Positions 1,543 through 15,246 of a stretch of 64,000 bases of DNA are shown in pieces. Numbering within the stretch: position 1 is the stretch's first letter; each line of letters begins with the position of its first letter. Both the position numbers and the translations under genes were made by a program. The DNA is from Acidobacteriota bacterium. Its GTDB lineage: Bacteria; Acidobacteriota; Terriglobia; Acidiferrales; UBA7541. The stretch covers positions 1 through 64,000 of the forward strand of contig PMES01000101.1 in NCBI GenBank assembly GCA_003154775.1, given 5' to 3'. The notes under the pieces were generated by a model, which saw nothing but the letters and a program-made list of their open reading frames with translations, was not told the origin of the DNA and did no database searches.

Positions 1543-4317
1543 ATGCTTACCATTTCCAAGCCGCTCAGTGCAGGCCAAGCGCATGCTTATCATCAGGAGG
1601 AGTTTAGCAACGCGCAGGAGAACTACTACAGCGAAGGCGACCGGATACGCGGCGAATGGCACGGGAAATTGGCCGAGAAGTGGGGCTTGCGTGGTGGCGT
1701 CCAAGAGGAACAATTTCGGCGGCTCAGCGACGGTCAGCATCCGGTTAGCGGCGAGCAGTTGGTTCGCCATCAGACGGCGCGTGAATATGTGAACGAGCAA
1801 GGCAAAACGGTCAAGGCGATGGAGCACCGCGCAGGCTGGGATGCCACCTTCTCCGCGCCCAAAAGCGTATCGCTGACGGCGCTTGTGGGCGGCGATGAAT
1901 GCGTGCAGGAGGCCCATCGTGCCAGCGTCGGAATCGCGCTGGGCGAGATGGAGCGCTACGTCCAGGCCCGGCTTGGAGGAAATGTTCCACCGGAGACAAC
2001 CGGGAATTGGGTCGCCGCAAGATTCGAGCACGACAGCGCCAGGCCCGTAAACGGTTATGCAGCCCCGCAGCTTCACACGCACGTGGTCTTCTTCAATCTG
2101 ACAGAAACGGCCAATGGTGAAACACGGCCCCTTCAACCGCAGGAACTCTATCGCACGCAGCAATATGCCACCGCCGTATATCGCTCGGAACTGGCGCACC
2201 GTCTACAAGGGTTGGGCTACGAGATCGAGCACGGCAAGAGCGGTCAACCGGAAATCAAGGGGTATAGCCATGAGTATCTCGAAGCTTCCAGTCCACGCCG
2301 GAAACAGATCAAAGAGCATCTGGCGATGGAGAATCAGAGCGGCGCGGCCGCTGCGCAGATCGCCGCCCACCACACACGCGAGGCAAAGATCGGGTTGTCG
2401 CATGAGGAGATGCAGCAGCGGCACAAGGACATGGCAACTGAGTTTGGGGATCAACCTGACCACGTGAAGGCGGAGGCCGAAGGAAGAGCGCGCGACGTTG
2501 GCCAGGATACGGGAAAGAAGATTGCTCACTCGGCTGTGACCTTCGCCAAAGAACGAAACTTCGAACGCGATGCCGTAGCCGATGGGCGCGCTTTGTTGAC
2601 TGACGCACTCAGGCGCTCCATGGGTGGAGCGACGCTGGCCCAGGTGAAAGCGAATTTCGAAGAGCGCATCGAATCAGGCGAGTTCGTTGAAGTCCAAAGG
2701 CAAGGTAACTCGCCCGACCGGGCGTTTACGACCGCTGAGATGATCGACTACGAACGCGACACGATCAATACCATGCGCGCGGGCCAAGACCGGCATGCGG
2801 CGCTAGCGACTTTTGGCACGCGCTGGGCTATGCGGGAAGCGCATGGCCATTTGAGCGACACGCAACGCCGGGCTGTGGAACAAATCTTGTCGAGTCGCGA
2901 TCAAGTGACGGCGCTTGAAGGCGTGGCAGGTGGGGGTAAGACTACCTCCCTCGCGGCGGTCCGAGAAGCCGCTGAGCGAGAGAACTACATCGTCAAGGGT
3001 TTAGCGCCCACCTCTCGCGCGGCACAGAAGCTAGAAGAAAGTGGAATCAAATCGAACACGTTGCAACGCCATCTTGCCCAAAGCTATGAGGGACACGAGG
3101 AACGGAAACGCCTTTACGTCCTGGACGAATCGAGCCTGGCGAGCACGAAACAAATGAACGAATTCCTCCACCGGTTGCAAAAAGAGGATCGCGTGCTGCT
3201 CGTTGGCGACACACGCCAGCACCAGGCCGTTGAAGCGGGCAAGCCGTATCAGCAGTTACAGGAAGCCGGAATCCAGACGACTCGACTGGACGAGATCGTG
3301 CGGCAGAAAGACCCGACGCTCAAAGAAGTTGTGGAAAAGCTCTCGCGAGGGCAAGTCCGAGAGGCGATGGAGAAACTCGATGCCACTGGCCGAGTGCATG
3401 AGATCTCCGACCGGGACGAGCGTATCGCCACAATCGCGCATGAATATAAGAAACAACCTGAAGGCACGCTTGTGGTGTCCCCCGACAACCAGTCACGAGT
3501 GGCGATCAATGAAGCGATTCACTATGCCATGCAGGATACGAACCGGATACCGTACCTCGAGTACCGGATGAAAGTCCTGGTCGCCCGGCAGGAGGTTACA
3601 GGAGCTGACCGCCAATGGGCCGCCCAATACGAACCCGGCAATGTGGTGCGGTACGCCAAGGGCAGCAAGACGCTCGGCATTGCACCAGGCGAATACGCGC
3701 GAGTCGAAAGCGTTGACGAGAAACAGAATCGCGTCACGGTTGAACGGAAGAACGGCCAGCGGCTGAGCTACGACCCTCGCCGTTTACAAGGCGTGGCGTT
3801 GTATCGAGAGGCAGAGCGAGCATTCAGTGAAGGCGACCGCATACAGTTCGCCGCTCCGAATCGAGACCAGCACGTCGCCAACCGTGAGCTGGGCACTATC
3901 GAGAAGATCGATGAGAGTGGCCACCTCAGAGTCCGTCTCGACTCGGGCCGCGCGATCGCGTTCAACATTCGAGACAATCCTCATCTCGATCACGGCTACG
4001 CAGTGACCAGTCACAGCAGCCAAGGACAGACTGCTGATCGCGTGCTCATCCATGTGGATACCGAGCAGGCGGGAGAAAAGCTCGTCAATCGTCGCTTGGC
4101 ATACGTCGCAGTGTCGCGTGGACGCTACGACGCCCAAATCTATACCAATGATAAAGCCGCTCTTGCCGAAGGGCTTGGCCGCGAGGTTTCACATCGATCT
4201 GCTTTGCAGTCCACACGCGCAGCAGAACCACGCGTCGCTCAAAAGAGCGAGCCAACCTCTTCTCCAACTCTGGAGAAGGAGCGAACAATCGAACGAGACC
4301 TCAGCCCTGGCCGCTAG
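1543..4317 (+). CDS. MobF-family relaxase/helicase (TrwC/TraI-like)
   Basis: N-terminal relaxase features (ENYYSEGDRIRGEW Tyr motif, LHTHVVFFNLT His motif) and helicase Walker A VAGGGKTTSLAAV, DESSLAS. Confidence 0.93.
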   Translation: MLTISKPLSAGQAHAYHQEEFSNAQENYYSEGDRIRGEWHGKLAEKWGLRGGVQEEQFRRLSDGQHPVSGEQLVRHQTAREYVNEQGKTVKAMEHRAGWDATFSAPKSVSLTALVGGDECVQEAHRASVGIALGEMERYVQARLGGNVPPETTGNWVAARFEHDSARPVNGYAAPQLHTHVVFFNLTETANGETRPLQPQELYRTQQYATAVYRSELAHRLQGLGYEIEHGKSGQPEIKGYSHEYLEASSPRRKQIKEHLAMENQSGAAAAQIAAHHTREAKIGLSHEEMQQRHKDMATEFGDQPDHVKAEAEGRARDVGQDTGKKIAHSAVTFAKERNFERDAVADGRALLTDALRRSMGGATLAQVKANFEERIESGEFVEVQRQGNSPDRAFTTAEMIDYERDTINTMRAGQDRHAALATFGTRWAMREAHGHLSDTQRRAVEQILSSRDQVTALEGVAGGGKTTSLAAVREAAERENYIVKGLAPTSRAAQKLEESGIKSNTLQRHLAQSYEGHEERKRLYVLDESSLASTKQMNEFLHRLQKEDRVLLVGDTRQHQAVEAGKPYQQLQEAGIQTTRLDEIVRQKDPTLKEVVEKLSRGQVREAMEKLDATGRVHEISDRDERIATIAHEYKKQPEGTLVVSPDNQSRVAINEAIHYAMQDTNRIPYLEYRMKVLVARQEVTGADRQWAAQYEPGNVVRYAKGSKTLGIAPGEYARVESVDEKQNRVTVERKNGQRLSYDPRRLQGVALYREAERAFSEGDRIQFAAPNRDQHVANRELGTIEKIDESGHLRVRLDSGRAIAFNIRDNPHLDHGYAVTSHSSQGQTADRVLIHVDTEQAGEKLVNRRLAYVAVSRGRYDAQIYTNDKAALAEGLGREVSHRSALQSTRAAEPRVAQKSEPTSSPTLEKERTIERDLSPGR

Positions 4318-6810: not shown

Positions 6811-7002
6811 ATGAAGCGCGATCTTATTTCCAAAGTGATGAGTGAAATGGGCAGAAAAGGCGGGAAAGCAGCTAAGGGTAAGGGTGCAAAAGCCCGGATG
6901 GCAGCTCTGACGCCGGAACAAAGAAAAGAAATTGGAAAGAAAGCAGCAGAAGCACGATGGGCAAGAGTCAAGAAAAAGGGCAAAGGCCGTGCCAAGACAT
7001 AA
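6811..7002 (+). CDS. small basic KGG-like protein
   Basis: GRKGGKAAKGKGAKARMAALTPEQRKEIGKKAAEARWARVKKK; upstream purine-rich RBS. Confidence 0.6.
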   Translation: MKRDLISKVMSEMGRKGGKAAKGKGAKARMAALTPEQRKEIGKKAAEARWARVKKKGKGRAKT

Positions 7003-7149
7003 TGCAAACCATCCCTTCCGCCACGCCGAGGGAATCGGGGCAAGTTGGCGAACCATGTCGGGCTCGAGTACGCGTCGTGAGCACGGTTAACTTAGGAAGT
7101 TCCACAAATCAGTTCTTCACCCGAATCTGCGGCTGCGAGGAGGTTTCAA

Positions 7150-7758
7150 GTGCCATGGATTTTCGGTCCCGCCTTTCCGGGCCATCCCAAGACAGTTGAA
7201 ATGCGTGAGCTAAAGAACCTGGATGTGGAATCAAGAGCTAAGGCGTTCAAAGCAAGAGCTGATGCATTTTTCATCAAACAAGTCGATCATCTCCAGTCGC
7301 CATCGCTTTGGGTGCCGTTTCCCCTTGCTGTGATGACGTGCATTGGAATTGAGATGGTGGGCTCTTATAAGTTCGGTGATGCCCCGAATGATCGCAACGA
7401 TCACTTCAAGAAGACCGTCGAAGACATTGATGTAGGCTTTTCTACAGAGCAGTTGACCCCGAAGGGAGACAAGAAAAAGCTCAGCTGCTTCATCTATCAG
7501 GGATTCAGAAATTCGCTCGCGCATGGTTACTATGGCCAATGGGTGTTCATTACACACGACGAGAAGAAGGCTCGAACTTTCCGCTATAGTGCTGCAAGGA
7601 ATCTTGTCGTGTTGAATGTCTATTGGTTCTACGGACAGTTCAAGAAGACGTACAACCGCTATTTTTCAGACCTGCTGGCGGGAACCGATTCAAAGCACGA
7701 CCCACTTAAGACGTTTAATGAGACCCTTGAGAAGAAGTTTGAGCTCTGGCTCAGGTGA
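7150..7758 (+). CDS. HEPN-like protein upstream of SIR2-like gene
   Basis: Contains FRNSLAHG (Rx4H HEPN-type motif); alternative start ATG 7201; 23 bp upstream of the SIR2-like ORF. Confidence 0.5.
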   Translation: MPWIFGPAFPGHPKTVEMRELKNLDVESRAKAFKARADAFFIKQVDHLQSPSLWVPFPLAVMTCIGIEMVGSYKFGDAPNDRNDHFKKTVEDIDVGFSTEQLTPKGDKKKLSCFIYQGFRNSLAHGYYGQWVFITHDEKKARTFRYSAARNLVVLNVYWFYGQFKKTYNRYFSDLLAGTDSKHDPLKTFNETLEKKFELWLR

Positions 7759-7781
7759 ATGCTAGCGAAGTCGGCTAACCA

Positions 7782-10700
7782 ATGAAGAAAAACACTGCAA
7801 TCGAGCAACTGCCAGACTTTCCAGCAATCAGACAGATTCAGGGGGCTCTGTGGGGAGTCACCGAGACGCGCGGTGCAGCGGTGCTGATCGGGGCCGGATT
7901 CAGTCGCAATGCAGTGCTCCCGGCACCTAATTCTCCCAAACCGCCACTTTGGACTGATTTCTTCCGGATCATGAAAGAACGCCTGTACCCAGGTTCGCGA
8001 GAAAAAGACACGACATCTGATCCCCTCCGGCTTGCGGAGGAATACAAGGCCGCATTAGGGCCAGCAGCGCTAGAGACCCTTATCTACGAGCTCGTTCGAG
8101 ATAAGGAATGGAGGCCAGGTCCACTTCACCGCAAGCTTGTGCATCTCCCATGGACAGATATCCTGACCACGAACTGGGACACGCTTTTGGAGAGTGCGGC
8201 AGACGTTACCGACAGGGAAGAGACATATGACACCGTAAGAACGATTGCCGACATACCTCGCACGCGCTCTCCCCGGATCGTGAAGTTGCACGGTAGTATG
8301 CCATCAAACCCTCCATTCATCTTTACTGAAGAGGACTACAGGACTTTTCCGAGGAATTTCGCCCCGTTTGTCAATCTAGTCCAGCAAGTTCTGATGGAAA
8401 ACGAACTCTGTCTCGTGGGATTTTCTGGAGACGATCCGAACTTCCTTCAGTGGTCAGGCTGGATACGAGATCAACTCGGTGACTCTGCGCGCCGTATTTA
8501 TCTTGTCGGGGTTTTGAATCTGTCCCCTGCGCACAGGAAATATTTGGAAGCGAGGAAGGTCACGCCGATTGATTTTGCGCCCATCGTTGACGAGGCAGAT
8601 GGTGAGGATTGGCACAACGTGGCTTCTGGTTTGTTCTTGGACTTCCTGCTCAACTCAAAGCCAAAGGCTGCCTCACAGTGGTTGTCGAACACGGGGTCAA
8701 TTCGGTCGCAACAGTTGCTCGGGATGTCGCTAAACCGGACTGAGAGCGCAGGGCTGGTAGGGAGTTTCAAGGAACTTGTCACTGCTTGGCAAAAGGAACG
8801 CGAGTCCTATGCCGGCTGGCTGGTATGTCCATCGGGGGACCGAACTCGCATCAGGTCTGAGATCGGTAACCCTGAATACGTCTTCAGGCAGGTGCACGAG
8901 CATCTCCAAGCTCCCGAGCGAGCCACAGCCTTGTACGAAATTCTGTGGCGTCTTGATTTAGCATTTGTGCCCCCGTCCGTCTGGTTCCGCGGAGTATTGA
9001 CCGAACTCGTCGAAGACTCCTCTTCTATTGTGAAAAAGCGGCAACGCTTTGAAATCGCTTTGATTCTCCTGCGTATCGCACGCGAGGAACGGGACCGTTC
9101 CTTGTTTGAACGCTGGGTTATATTTCTCAAAACGAATACCAGCTCTGACAAGGATGTCGTTGCAGCGATTGCCTATGAGGAGAGTCTGTGGGCTCGCGAT
9201 CATTTAGACTATTCGGCACTTGAGAAGCTAGTGCCTACTATCACTGGGGAAGATCCGGCATGGAAGATAAGGCGCGCGGCTCTCCACTATGAATTGGGTG
9301 AGTCCGACAAAGCCGCGAAACTAATTACTGAAGTACTTCAAGAAATCCGCGAGCGCTACGTTCGGGACCGCAAGTCGATTTGGAACATTTCTCGGCTTGG
9401 GTGGGCTCTGTTTCTCGCTCGTGGTGCCAGACTTAACTCCGTCCAGCCGGAGAATGACGAACCACTCATTGCCTCTAATGAGTGGCCAGACTATTTTGTC
9501 AGGAATAAGTGTCTGTCTTGGGATGAGCTGGCCGAATTAGATCGCCAAATCAGCGAGGAATTTCGGGAGACGACAGAAGGCACACAATCCGAAAGCGCAC
9601 TTTTTGAACCAGGCGCTTATACAACCACTGTGCGGTTTTCGAGTTCGTTAGGCAGGGCGATGAACGACACTGTACGGGTTGCAGACACAATTGGCCTGCC
9701 GACAATGGCCGGATCAGTTGATGTGATGCGTTCCCGTTTTTCCCGAGCAGTTGAGTTATCAAGCAGCTATGACGAAGCCGCGTTCTTGCGCACGATCCGA
9801 ATTCTGAAAGGGCCTTCGGACAAACTGATTGAAAAAGTGTTCGGTCGTGTCCAAGTGGCTCGTATACCCTACGCTACTGCACAGAGATTGATCGACGTTT
9901 TGTGGACAGCGATCAACTTTGGACGGATGCGGTTTCCCAGCCCGAGCAGTTTCCTCCAGCCTGGTTTCAATGAGTTTTGGGTTGACCGTTTACGAGTTCT
10001 AGTTGAGGTCCTCTCTCGTTTGGTTGTTAGACTCGATGGTGAGCAGGCCATCGCGGCATTTCGTAAGGCTGTTTCTCTTGCTCATGCTCCGGACTGGAGA
10101 TATTGGGCGCTGTTTGAACCACTCGGGAATCTGTTAAACCGCGCTCTCTTGGCGACTCCGCCTCGCGAGCGTCAAGGACTGCTCCTGGAGATCCTGAATC
10201 TGCCTCTTCCAGATGAGCGGGGCATCCAAGGACAGACTGGCGGCCCACTGGATGAATGGCCCGAAGTGATGGCTCGCTTTCCGGGCAGAATAAGAGGTCG
10301 CGGTTCCGATGAGGCTGGATTTACAGCACGAGTGGCTGTCCTACTTTCGAAACTGATCTGTGGCGATCCACTAACTCGAGGACGAGCAGCGATTCGCCTT
10401 GGCTATTTGCAACGAATGGGTTCACTGACTCCCGAGGAAGGTATCTCATTTGGGAAAGCCGTGTGGTCGAAGCGAGAGTCTGCTTCGGCTTTTCCGCAAC
10501 ACATTAGTTTACTTGCACACGTGCTGTTCGACATTCCGGGGCACGACAAGAGTGATTTGACGCGACTCTTCAGGAGTAATGTTGTCGCCAAGACTTTGTC
10601 CGGTCTCGTCAGCCCCGATCCAATTACGGAAATTGTCGGCGCGACCCGCGCGCGAAGTGATGGATCAAGAGCATTTGAATTAACCAGCGATGAAGCACTC

Positions 10701-11423
10701 AAGCTTTTCGATCTAATCCTGGTCTGGCAGCCCCGTCCCGTCACAATAGACCTTGACCGCCACAACGCCAAAATGACAGACGTCTTTGGCCTCGCACTGG
10801 CGGAGTCAATTTTTCCGGTTGTAGATCTCAAACACTTGGGACAAGACAGAATTGAAAAACTATTCAACAGAGTTGAGGCAGGAACATTGAATTCTGCCCT
10901 CATCGCCCTTGCCGATATCGTCCGATTGGATGGATCTCGGGAGAATAGGGCTGTCGAATTACTTCATCGGGCGATTTTCAGTCGTGAACGGGATGCCGTC
11001 GTTTACAGCCTCAGTGGCATTAATCGTTGGCGAATTCGTTCAAGAGAAGGCTCACTTGGAAAGATACCTCAGCGATTGAAGCAAGCTGCAATCACACTTG
11101 CTGTTGGGGCAAGAGAGCCTTGGTTGTCTTCGGCTTTATACCTCGCAGGCAAGTTCGTGGAAGATGGTGACGTCAGTGATGGCGACAGGCAAGAGTTGCT
11201 AGTTGTACTCGACAAGTTGAGAACCGAGACGGCATACACATCTTGGGAAACGAGCGACCCGCGGACTATCAATATCACTCACGTCCGTGCGCAATGTGTG
11301 AGGCTGGCAGAACAATTGCGGCAGGCTGGTGTGGTTCATGGCGCGATTGCATTTTGGATCGACCGCTCCATGGATGATCCGATGCCAGAAGTGAGATATG
11401 CCCTTGCCGATCTGGAAGAATAG
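7782..11423 (+). CDS. SIR2-like domain protein with long C-terminal region (defence-associated sirtuin-like)
   Basis: N-terminus has GAGFSRNA, TTNWDTLLE, VKLHGSMP, GFSGDDPNF; ~900-aa helical C-terminal region; 1213 aa. Confidence 0.8.
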   Translation: MKKNTAIEQLPDFPAIRQIQGALWGVTETRGAAVLIGAGFSRNAVLPAPNSPKPPLWTDFFRIMKERLYPGSREKDTTSDPLRLAEEYKAALGPAALETLIYELVRDKEWRPGPLHRKLVHLPWTDILTTNWDTLLESAADVTDREETYDTVRTIADIPRTRSPRIVKLHGSMPSNPPFIFTEEDYRTFPRNFAPFVNLVQQVLMENELCLVGFSGDDPNFLQWSGWIRDQLGDSARRIYLVGVLNLSPAHRKYLEARKVTPIDFAPIVDEADGEDWHNVASGLFLDFLLNSKPKAASQWLSNTGSIRSQQLLGMSLNRTESAGLVGSFKELVTAWQKERESYAGWLVCPSGDRTRIRSEIGNPEYVFRQVHEHLQAPERATALYEILWRLDLAFVPPSVWFRGVLTELVEDSSSIVKKRQRFEIALILLRIAREERDRSLFERWVIFLKTNTSSDKDVVAAIAYEESLWARDHLDYSALEKLVPTITGEDPAWKIRRAALHYELGESDKAAKLITEVLQEIRERYVRDRKSIWNISRLGWALFLARGARLNSVQPENDEPLIASNEWPDYFVRNKCLSWDELAELDRQISEEFRETTEGTQSESALFEPGAYTTTVRFSSSLGRAMNDTVRVADTIGLPTMAGSVDVMRSRFSRAVELSSSYDEAAFLRTIRILKGPSDKLIEKVFGRVQVARIPYATAQRLIDVLWTAINFGRMRFPSPSSFLQPGFNEFWVDRLRVLVEVLSRLVVRLDGEQAIAAFRKAVSLAHAPDWRYWALFEPLGNLLNRALLATPPRERQGLLLEILNLPLPDERGIQGQTGGPLDEWPEVMARFPGRIRGRGSDEAGFTARVAVLLSKLICGDPLTRGRAAIRLGYLQRMGSLTPEEGISFGKAVWSKRESASAFPQHISLLAHVLFDIPGHDKSDLTRLFRSNVVAKTLSGLVSPDPITEIVGATRARSDGSRAFELTSDEALKLFDLILVWQPRPVTIDLDRHNAKMTDVFGLALAESIFPVVDLKHLGQDRIEKLFNRVEAGTLNSALIALADIVRLDGSRENRAVELLHRAIFSRERDAVVYSLSGINRWRIRSREGSLGKIPQRLKQAAITLAVGAREPWLSSALYLAGKFVEDGDVSDGDRQELLVVLDKLRTETAYTSWETSDPRTINITHVRAQCVRLAEQLRQAGVVHGAIAFWIDRSMDDPMPEVRYALADLEE

Positions 11424-11735: not shown

Positions 11736-12656
11736 ATGGCTAGCGTCTACGAAATCGTCACTGAGAAAATTATCAAGCAGCTTGAATCCGGCGTGGCTCC
11801 CTGGCGCAAGCCCTGGACCTGTCAGATTCCCGCAAACCTGCTCACGCAAAAAGAGTATCGCGGCCTCAATGTCTTTACTCTCGCCTCGCAGGGGTTTCCA
11901 TCGCGATTCTGGCTTACCTTCAATCAGGCAACGAAGCTTGGCGGAAGGATTCGCAAGGGCGAGAAGTCTTCCCCCGTCATCTTCTGGAACGTTGGCGAAG
12001 AGCGAGAGATGACCACGCAAGACAGCAAGAAAGAGACTTCGCGGCCTTTTCTGCTCCGTTATTACAGCGTCTTCAATTTCTCGCAGACGGAAGGCATCGA
12101 CATCCCCGCTTCCCTTCTGCAGGAGGCCCGCACCAACGATCCGATTGCAGCGTGCGAGCAGATTGTGGCGAACATGCCGAATCCACCAGCGTTCCAGCAA
12201 TCCGACAAAGCATGGTACTCACCCAGCAGAGACGTGGTCGGTATGCCAGCACGCGGCCTCTTTCATTCATCGGAAGAATTTTACGCCACCGAATTCTACG
12301 AATTGGGTCACAGCAGTGGACACCCAAAGCGCCTGCACCGGGAGAACTTTGATAACCCGGCTCATTTTGGCTCTGAATCCTACTCGAAAGAGGAACTCAT
12401 CGCGGAGATGACCGCTGCCATGCTGTGCGGCGTTGCGGGAATCGAACAGAAGACGATTGAAAACTCCGCCGCCTATCTCAAGACGTGGATTGCACGGATC
12501 AAGTCCGATTCGCGGTTGCTTGTCTCCGCCGCTTCGCAGGCCCAGAAAGCCGCCGATTTCGTCCAAGGCAAAATTGCGCATCAGGAAGGCGAATGGGAAC
12601 TCGTGGGCGTAGGTGACACCAAACGCAATCCTACCCTCACTAATACACTCACTTAG
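11736..12656 (+). CDS. ArdC-like antirestriction / zincin-like domain protein, metal motif altered
   Basis: MASVYEIVTEKIIKQLESGVAPWRKPW ... FYATEFYELGHSSGHPKRL ... SYSKEELIAEM; typical ArdC N-terminal and metallopeptidase regions. Confidence 0.85.
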   Translation: MASVYEIVTEKIIKQLESGVAPWRKPWTCQIPANLLTQKEYRGLNVFTLASQGFPSRFWLTFNQATKLGGRIRKGEKSSPVIFWNVGEEREMTTQDSKKETSRPFLLRYYSVFNFSQTEGIDIPASLLQEARTNDPIAACEQIVANMPNPPAFQQSDKAWYSPSRDVVGMPARGLFHSSEEFYATEFYELGHSSGHPKRLHRENFDNPAHFGSESYSKEELIAEMTAAMLCGVAGIEQKTIENSAAYLKTWIARIKSDSRLLVSAASQAQKAADFVQGKIAHQEGEWELVGVGDTKRNPTLTNTLT

Positions 12657-13131: not shown

Positions 13132-13302
13132 ATGGCAAAGGTATCTCCTTATCACACAAATTCGCAGGAATATCCGCCGAAACATAGAAACGTATATCAC
13201 GATCACGATGACTGCCCGGACGGTAAGAGAATCAAGCCGCAGCACCGTGAAAGCGGAACGGGCGGCAAATCGCGATGCGACGAGTGCATTAGGCTTGGTT
13301 AG
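13132..13302 (+). CDS. small Cys/His-rich protein (56 aa)
   Basis: Below the ORF-track cutoff; MAKVSPYHTNSQEYPPKHRNVYHDHDDCPDGKRIKPQHRESGTGGKSRCDECIRLG; AGGAGG RBS 7-8 nt upstream. Confidence 0.7.
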   Translation: MAKVSPYHTNSQEYPPKHRNVYHDHDDCPDGKRIKPQHRESGTGGKSRCDECIRLG

Positions 13303-13393
13303 CATAACGGCTCCCGAAAGGTTACTTCGCGTTGAGGTCCAGTCAGTTCTCATTGCCATCGAGCATGTTCCATGTGCGCCGAGGTTGTATCCC

Positions 13394-14353
13394 ATGACCG
13401 TCATGAGGCGCTTGGCTTTTCTTGTGATTTTGCTTGCAGCAGCAGTCGGGATTGCTGCTGCTCAAGGCACGCCAAAACAGGGGGGCACAAAACAGAAGAG
13501 CGGTCAAAAGACTGAGGGCGCCAAGCAATCCGACCAGAATCACGAGACTGCCGACAAAGTGGCGATTCCGACTACCGACCAGCCATGCGCCCACCTGTCC
13601 GATACCCACACAGTAAAGAGTAGCGAGGATGCAGAAATACAATGGAAGGTCGTCGAATTTACAAAATGGCTCGCCATCGTTGGGGCGCTCCAATTTCTTG
13701 CTCTGATCGTTCAGGCCATTGTTTTTGGGCGCACCCTGAGGCAGGTTAGGATGCAGGCCGTCCTCATGCGGGAACATGCTGGACACCTTGAAAGTCTTGC
13801 CACCGCAGCCAGAGACAATGCCAAAGCCGCCAAAACCAGCGCCGATGCCCTGATCGGCGCTGAACGCGCTTGGATTCTTGAAGCTATAAATTTCCCAAAC
13901 AATCTTCCGGTGCAACCAATCGCAGGAGACGTAATCATCGTCTATGTGGGCTTCACTTTCACAAATAGAGGCGGAACACCAGCCAGGGTTCTCGCCATCA
14001 AACTGAGATTCCATACCGTAGAAACGCCAAATAGCTTGTCGGATTCCCCGCAATATGACACCACGTCCATGCCGGAACTCGGTGCTTACGGCAGGATGCT
14101 AGCTTTTGGCGAACCGATCAGTGTCGGACGCAGCTTGGAAGGTCGCGCTGCCTTTAAGGAAGGCGACCGTCAAGCGATTGCCGAAAACAGACTTTCCCTC
14201 TATGCCTACGGAATAATTGAATATGAAACGCTCGGCATCAAGGCTTCGACCCAATTCTGCTACGTCTGGTGTGAACCTTGGGGATTCTCAACCTCTGCCG
14301 ATGTAGCGGGTTTCCGCAAGGGCGGTCCACCCGCTTACAACAAGGCAATCTAG
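13394..14353 (+). CDS. hypothetical membrane protein with signal peptide
   Basis: MTVMRRLAFLVILLAAAVGIAAAQ signal peptide, TM KWLAIVGALQFLALIVQAIVF, coiled coil and C-terminal beta-rich domain. Confidence 0.6.
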   Translation: MTVMRRLAFLVILLAAAVGIAAAQGTPKQGGTKQKSGQKTEGAKQSDQNHETADKVAIPTTDQPCAHLSDTHTVKSSEDAEIQWKVVEFTKWLAIVGALQFLALIVQAIVFGRTLRQVRMQAVLMREHAGHLESLATAARDNAKAAKTSADALIGAERAWILEAINFPNNLPVQPIAGDVIIVYVGFTFTNRGGTPARVLAIKLRFHTVETPNSLSDSPQYDTTSMPELGAYGRMLAFGEPISVGRSLEGRAAFKEGDRQAIAENRLSLYAYGIIEYETLGIKASTQFCYVWCEPWGFSTSADVAGFRKGGPPAYNKAI

Positions 14354-14445: not shown

Positions 14446-14712
14446 ATGCAACACGTTACTCTTGCTCTTCCTGACGAACTCTCAGCAGCGCTTGCTGCTC
14501 CCGGTCAAGATTTGTCCCGCGCCGCCTTCGAGGCCCTGGCTCTGGCGGCCTATCGCGAACGCAAAATTTCGGCTGCCCAACTACGACAGTTGCTAGGCTA
14601 CGAAACCCGCATCGAGGTTGATGCCTTTCTGAAGAACCATGGCGTCGAACTGGAATACGCGATGGAAGACCTTGAGCGGGATCGCGAGACGCACCGGCGA
14701 CTTGGCCTGTAG
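14446..14712 (+). CDS. UPF0175 family antitoxin
   Basis: ALPDELSAAL...SRAAFEALALAAYRERKISAAQLRQLLGYETRIEVDAFLKNHGVELEY. Confidence 0.85.
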   Translation: MQHVTLALPDELSAALAAPGQDLSRAAFEALALAAYRERKISAAQLRQLLGYETRIEVDAFLKNHGVELEYAMEDLERDRETHRRLGL

Positions 14713-15246
14713 ATGCAATCGATTGTAGCTGACACAACTCCCCTAAACTATCTCGTACTCATCCAAGCAGCCGAGATTCTTCCGAACCTATATAGAAAGG
14801 TTTTGATCCCTCCCGCTGTGAAGGCCGAACTGGCCCATGCAAACACGCCACATATCGTGCGCTCGTGGATTTCACAGGCCCCCTCATGGTTGGAAGTGGT
14901 GAACCTGAAGCAGCCCGTCGATTCGGCTCTATCACATCTGGACGCTGGCGAACGCGAAGCGATATCGCTTGCGTCCGAACTCCAAGCTAGCCTTTTGCTG
15001 ATGGACGAACGAGACGGAGTGGCTATGGCCCGCCACCGCGGATTGACGGTGATCGGCACGCTCGCTGCGCTGGACCTTGCTGCAGTCCGTGGACTCATTG
15101 ACTTGCTGACGATGTTCGACCGGTTGCGCGCGACCACGTTTCGATCACCACTTCGCCTCATGGTTAGCATGCTGGAGCAGGATGCCGAACGCAAGAAACG
15201 TCAAGAAGGCGGGCCCGAATATGGTGGGCCTTCTAACGCCGGTTGA
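14713..15246 (+). CDS. PIN-domain toxin (DUF3368-like)
   Basis: VADTTPLNYLVLI, DAGEREAISLA, LLLMDERDG acidic motifs; starts immediately after the antitoxin stop. Confidence 0.85.
   Translation: MQSIVADTTPLNYLVLIQAAEILPNLYRKVLIPPAVKAELAHANTPHIVRSWISQAPSWLEVVNLKQPVDSALSHLDAGEREAISLASELQASLLLMDERDGVAMARHRGLTVIGTLAALDLAAVRGLIDLLTMFDRLRATTFRSPLRLMVSMLEQDAERKKRQEGGPEYGGPSNAG

Follow-up and report, generated by a model that had tools for sequence, protein, structure and literature searches.

A divergent DSR2-like sirtuin gene in a probable acidobacterial accessory island adjoins an orphan reading frame that is probably not its partner

The functional core of the locus described here is probably one gene: a DSR2-like anti-phage protein of 1213 amino acids, next to which a small open reading frame (ORF) lies, probably as a separate accessory gene. 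Both occur in the first part of a 64,000-nt stretch of an Acidobacteriota genome contig (GenBank PMES01000101.1), to be called the window; the features concerned are listed in Table 1. DSR2 is a known anti-phage system, described as one effector-plus-sensor protein, which destroys NAD+ and thereby kills infected cells. The original prediction had read the two ORFs as a candidate two-gene defence system, in which a HEPN-like protein is paired with a SIR2-like one. We found both ORFs where that prediction had placed them, 23 bp apart on the same strand, as well as the small KGG-like basic protein said to precede them, but the proposed pairing itself was not supported.

Table 1. Positions of the DSR2-like gene, the small ORF and their neighbours in the window
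Feature	Position	Strand	Remarks
MobF/TrwC relaxase-helicase	1543-4317		
KGG-like basic ORF, Lys/Gly-rich	6811-7002	+	63 aa; weak PHROG matches, best 5.6e-05
Small ORF	7150-7758	+	202 aa if started at GTG 7150, 185 aa if at ATG 7201; RNSLAHG motif; possibly HEPN-like, orphan
RNSLAHG codons	7507-7527	+	Rx4H, putative HEPN RNase motif
DSR2-like sirtuin ORF	7782-11423	+	ATG start, 1213 aa; SIR2 NADase domain at about residues 8-295, then helical middle and C-terminal region
ArdC-type anti-restriction protein	11736-12656		Pfam
381-aa ORF	13208-14353		Two genes after DSR2; Pfam, PADLOC and NCBIfam gave nothing significant
UPF0175 protein, directly followed by PDC-S70 (DUF3368-like) protein	14446-15246		Pfam, PADLOC; ~3 kb after DSR2; likely a toxin-antitoxin-like pair

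By its sequence and its predicted fold, the large protein is a DSR2-like defence-associated sirtuin. It matches the PADLOC Dsr2 model over residues 16-934 (E = 5.1e-147) and the NCBIfam Dsr2 model (NF041819) over residues 29-1181 (E = 2.3e-153). The latter match scores 512.8 bits, against an equivalog cut-off of 1400 bits; we therefore call the protein DSR2-like rather than an equivalog, and its trigger and output may differ from those of Bacillus DSR2. The three SIR2 motifs noted in the original prediction (GAGFS, TTNWD and KLHGS) are all present, Pfam SIR2_2 is matched at 1.4e-20, and the best PDB chains by sequence are those of Bacillus DSR2 (2.2e-10, in the SIR2 region). Among 55 homologues, Asn131 is invariant and His170 is conserved in at least 90%; these residues correspond to N133 and H171 of Bacillus DSR2, both of which are required for its NADase activity (PMC10981675). 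Of the traits of the DSR2 family in the broad sense of the PADLOC model, the protein has the SIR2 domain at its N-terminus, catalytic Asn and His included, and middle and C-terminal regions of the DSR2 type, the latter recognised by PADLOC, NCBIfam and structure alignments.

An AlphaFold2 model of residues 1-1200, built from the 55 homologues, has a mean pLDDT of 88. When it was searched with Foldseek, DSR2 cryo-EM chains came out on top among the matches listed. VIA-align superposed the model on DSR2 chains with Z scores of 24-29 and up to 747 aligned residues, some alignments covering at least 700, whereas other SIR2 defence proteins were aligned over ~250 residues (Z ~14-26). The long alignments have an rmsd of 5.6-7.8, so the domain arrangement differs. 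Most of the structure alignments span residues 3-914, and the far C-terminus is backed mainly by the NCBIfam alignment and by the alignment of the relatives. The claim of a defence-associated sirtuin is thereby borne out, and can be narrowed to the known DSR2 kind by PADLOC, NCBIfam, PDB and fold evidence alike.

By analogy with the DSR2 proteins that have been studied, from which we infer both NADase activity and tail-tube sensing, the window protein may act as follows. Its C-terminal region would sense an incoming phage component, which in Bacillus DSR2 is the tail tube protein (the phage sensor there is the C-terminal domain; PMC10981675). The N-terminal SIR2 domains, with their predicted catalytic Asn131 and His170 and the long helical DSR2-type regions behind them, would then be switched on within a tetramer and hydrolyse NAD+, upon which the infected cell would stop growing or die.

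The small ORF is probably a real gene, since an AGGAGG Shine-Dalgarno sequence (7138-7143) lies 6 nt 5′ of GTG 7150 and since codon usage favours its own frame over the five alternatives, at the level of the neighbouring genes. Translation may start either at this GTG, 147 bp after the end of the KGG-like ORF, or at ATG 7201. No terminator-like site was found on the coding strand between the small ORF and the DSR2-like ORF, and the two may be co-transcribed. The ATG of the DSR2-like gene has no obvious strong ribosome-binding site in front of it, which, together with the 23-bp gap, makes co-expression or translational coupling possible.

The product of the small ORF is possibly a HEPN-type RNase or an RNA-binding protein. 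The RNSLAH string is present as originally predicted (residues 103-108 counted from ATG 7201), and no other Rx4H occurs in the 185-aa form; the string agrees with the HEPN definition of Rx4-6H with, typically, a polar residue after the Arg (PMC3710099). The HEPN reading itself stays plausible on the motif, being neither backed nor excluded by a match to any family, profile or structure. No match was obtained in Pfam (to E = 10), PADLOC, NCBIfam or PDB, and PHROG gave one weak match (0.0038). Profile comparison (hhalign) with true HEPN proteins returned a probability of 4%, aligning the 13-residue motif alone, with a single-sequence query that is weak in itself; the single-sequence AlphaFold model (pLDDT 42) is too poor for reading the fold or for a structure search.

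A little less than an even chance goes to a reading in which the small ORF has no functional tie to DSR2 and is its neighbour in a defence island, as a HEPN toxin or Abi-like gene standing alone; this is compatible with the preferred one-gene reading. Motif fishing for RN-x-LAHG in viral contigs brought up several ORFs that are HEPN by Pfam (MAE_28990, pEK499_p136), and DSR2 genes elsewhere adjoin varied neighbours. However, no relative showing independent mobility was found in the collections searched, and no MNT antitoxin-like gene is adjacent, as would be expected of a HEPN-MNT toxin-antitoxin system: the small ORF is flanked by the KGG-like ORF and DSR2. The true HEPN proteins fished by motif were not accepted as relatives, their alignment being confined to the motif.

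It is rather unlikely, though less so than a two-gene unit, that the small ORF is not HEPN at all and carries its motif by chance. Any Rx4H occurs in 24% of composition-matched shuffles, R[NHD]x3H in 3.3%, and a strict RN-x-LAH-like motif in 0.35%; hence, Rx4H alone is weak evidence for HEPN and RN-x-LAH is stronger. The lack of a family match and the low pLDDT fit a chance origin, but the full RNSLAHG string is close to the HEPN consensus.

At the level of sequence, the small ORF is an orphan with no detectable relatives. None was found by tblastn in plasmids and phages, nor by scans of viral contigs and, once, of a species-genome collection, which used exact degenerate 8-residue patterns that would miss distant relatives. 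Chance matches aside, no true relative occurred in ~1,100 sampled whole genomes, which were drawn from its own family, its class and its phylum, with 398 from another phylum. Candidates were rejected for a rhomboid-like reading frame (L097), for unrelated reading frames with an internal stop (L225), or for E values above 0.1 (L014-L016 and L224).

The small ORF was sought in 80 homologous DSR2 loci on genome contigs, of which 72 are intact and extend 700 bp or more upstream, and in a further five cellular, five plasmid and 12 viral loci. It was present in none of the 80, in none of the 10 other cellular or plasmid loci and in none of the 12 viral ones, and nothing among 8,530 ORFs from 90 loci matched it. 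In the phylogeny, the window gene forms one clade with two acidobacterial homologues (SH-aLRT 98), neither of which shows the small ORF: in one (L004), DSR2 is preceded by a tRNA-Pro-like sequence and by a TetR-like ORF, and in the other (L017), checked over 448 bp of upstream sequence, even the C-terminus of the partner is absent from that stretch. The plasmid relatives of DSR2 have unrelated neighbours.

Upstream neighbours vary across the 80 loci, and no recurrent upstream partner of DSR2 could be recognised, none being repeated across distinct clades. Small upstream ORFs in five loci (L032, L056, L087, L090 and L096) look spurious and without relation to the query. In four loci from as many genera (L033, L039, L061 and L072), an ORF of 965-1008 aa, ~96% identical between them, lies just upstream of DSR2 and overlaps its start by 13-16 bp; it looks like a recently transferred neighbour and may, in that group, be a genuine partner of DSR2 within one operon. 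These long neighbours, like the pair L044/L049, are each shared between closely related DSR2 loci.

A lineage-specific two-gene unit, in which the small ORF would be co-expressed with DSR2 and supply either a HEPN RNase as second effector or a HEPN-like protein with a regulatory or sensing role, is accordingly improbable, since no relatives of the small gene could be detected and it does not accompany DSR2 in a conserved manner. The shared strand, the short gap without a terminator-like site, the polar residue in RNSLAHG and the gene-like codon usage would suit such a unit, but the ORF is missing from all homologous loci examined, the two nearest acidobacterial relatives included, and neither Pfam nor profile comparison adds to the motif. 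The new architecture that had been proposed is thus not supported by the loci examined, none closer than ~40% identity, and a very recent pairing is possible because the homologues tested reach no further. The original prediction had held that it would be refuted if the homologous loci all had the SIR2 gene and lacked this partner, and the co-occurrence check found just this in every locus examined. A literature search, with most subscription journals outside its reach, found no DSR2-HEPN pair described, and the one paper found to name both gives DSR2 and HEPN as separate systems (PMC10952713). More doubtful still is a co-regulated double-effector abortive-infection unit of HEPN RNase and DSR2 NADase, confined to a narrow lineage outside the searched collections.

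The locus is, then, probably not a new two-gene system, and the adjacency of the two genes seems to be a one-off within an accessory island, where the small ORF would be a separate, fast-evolving gene adjoining DSR2. Indeed, the first 27 kb of the window, which also hold DUF3800 and HNH proteins, look like such an island: GC content is 0.50-0.56 over ~5-26 kb against ~0.60 in most of the region past 27 kb, where tRNA synthetase genes occur, and the MobF/TrwC relaxase and ArdC flanking the DSR2 region suggest an integrated mobile element. Another contig of the same genome (G000 contig C138, 11346-11660; L227) encodes a second SIR2_2 protein in a 370-aa open frame.

The window contributes a divergent DSR2, which lies in what looks like an accessory island with a relaxase gene in an acidobacterial genome. 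Conservation would have to be seen before a neighbouring RNSLAHG ORF is taken for a partner of DSR2; were the two to act in concert, one defence locus would combine the depletion of NAD+ with the cleavage of RNA. With HEPN families (Pfam HEPN_MAE_28990, pEK499_p136, RiboL-PSP), the small ORF has RN-x-LAHG in common and no likeness beyond it. The large protein shares the SIR2 domain with its catalytic Asn and His with DSR2 (PADLOC Dsr2, NF041819, and Bacillus DSR2 in PDB 8wyb, 8wy8 and others), which is also its best fold match; the family models, of 1215-1222 positions against its 1213 residues, align nearly end to end. Identity to Bacillus DSR2 is ~13% in the long structure alignments, and 27-40% to the other homologues compared here. 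ThsA (Thoeris), SPARSA, SIR2-HerA, KomC and Avs5 have the SIR2 NADase domain alone in common with the window protein: ThsA and the other SIR2 effectors do not match past that domain, whereas the remainder of the protein is DSR2-like.
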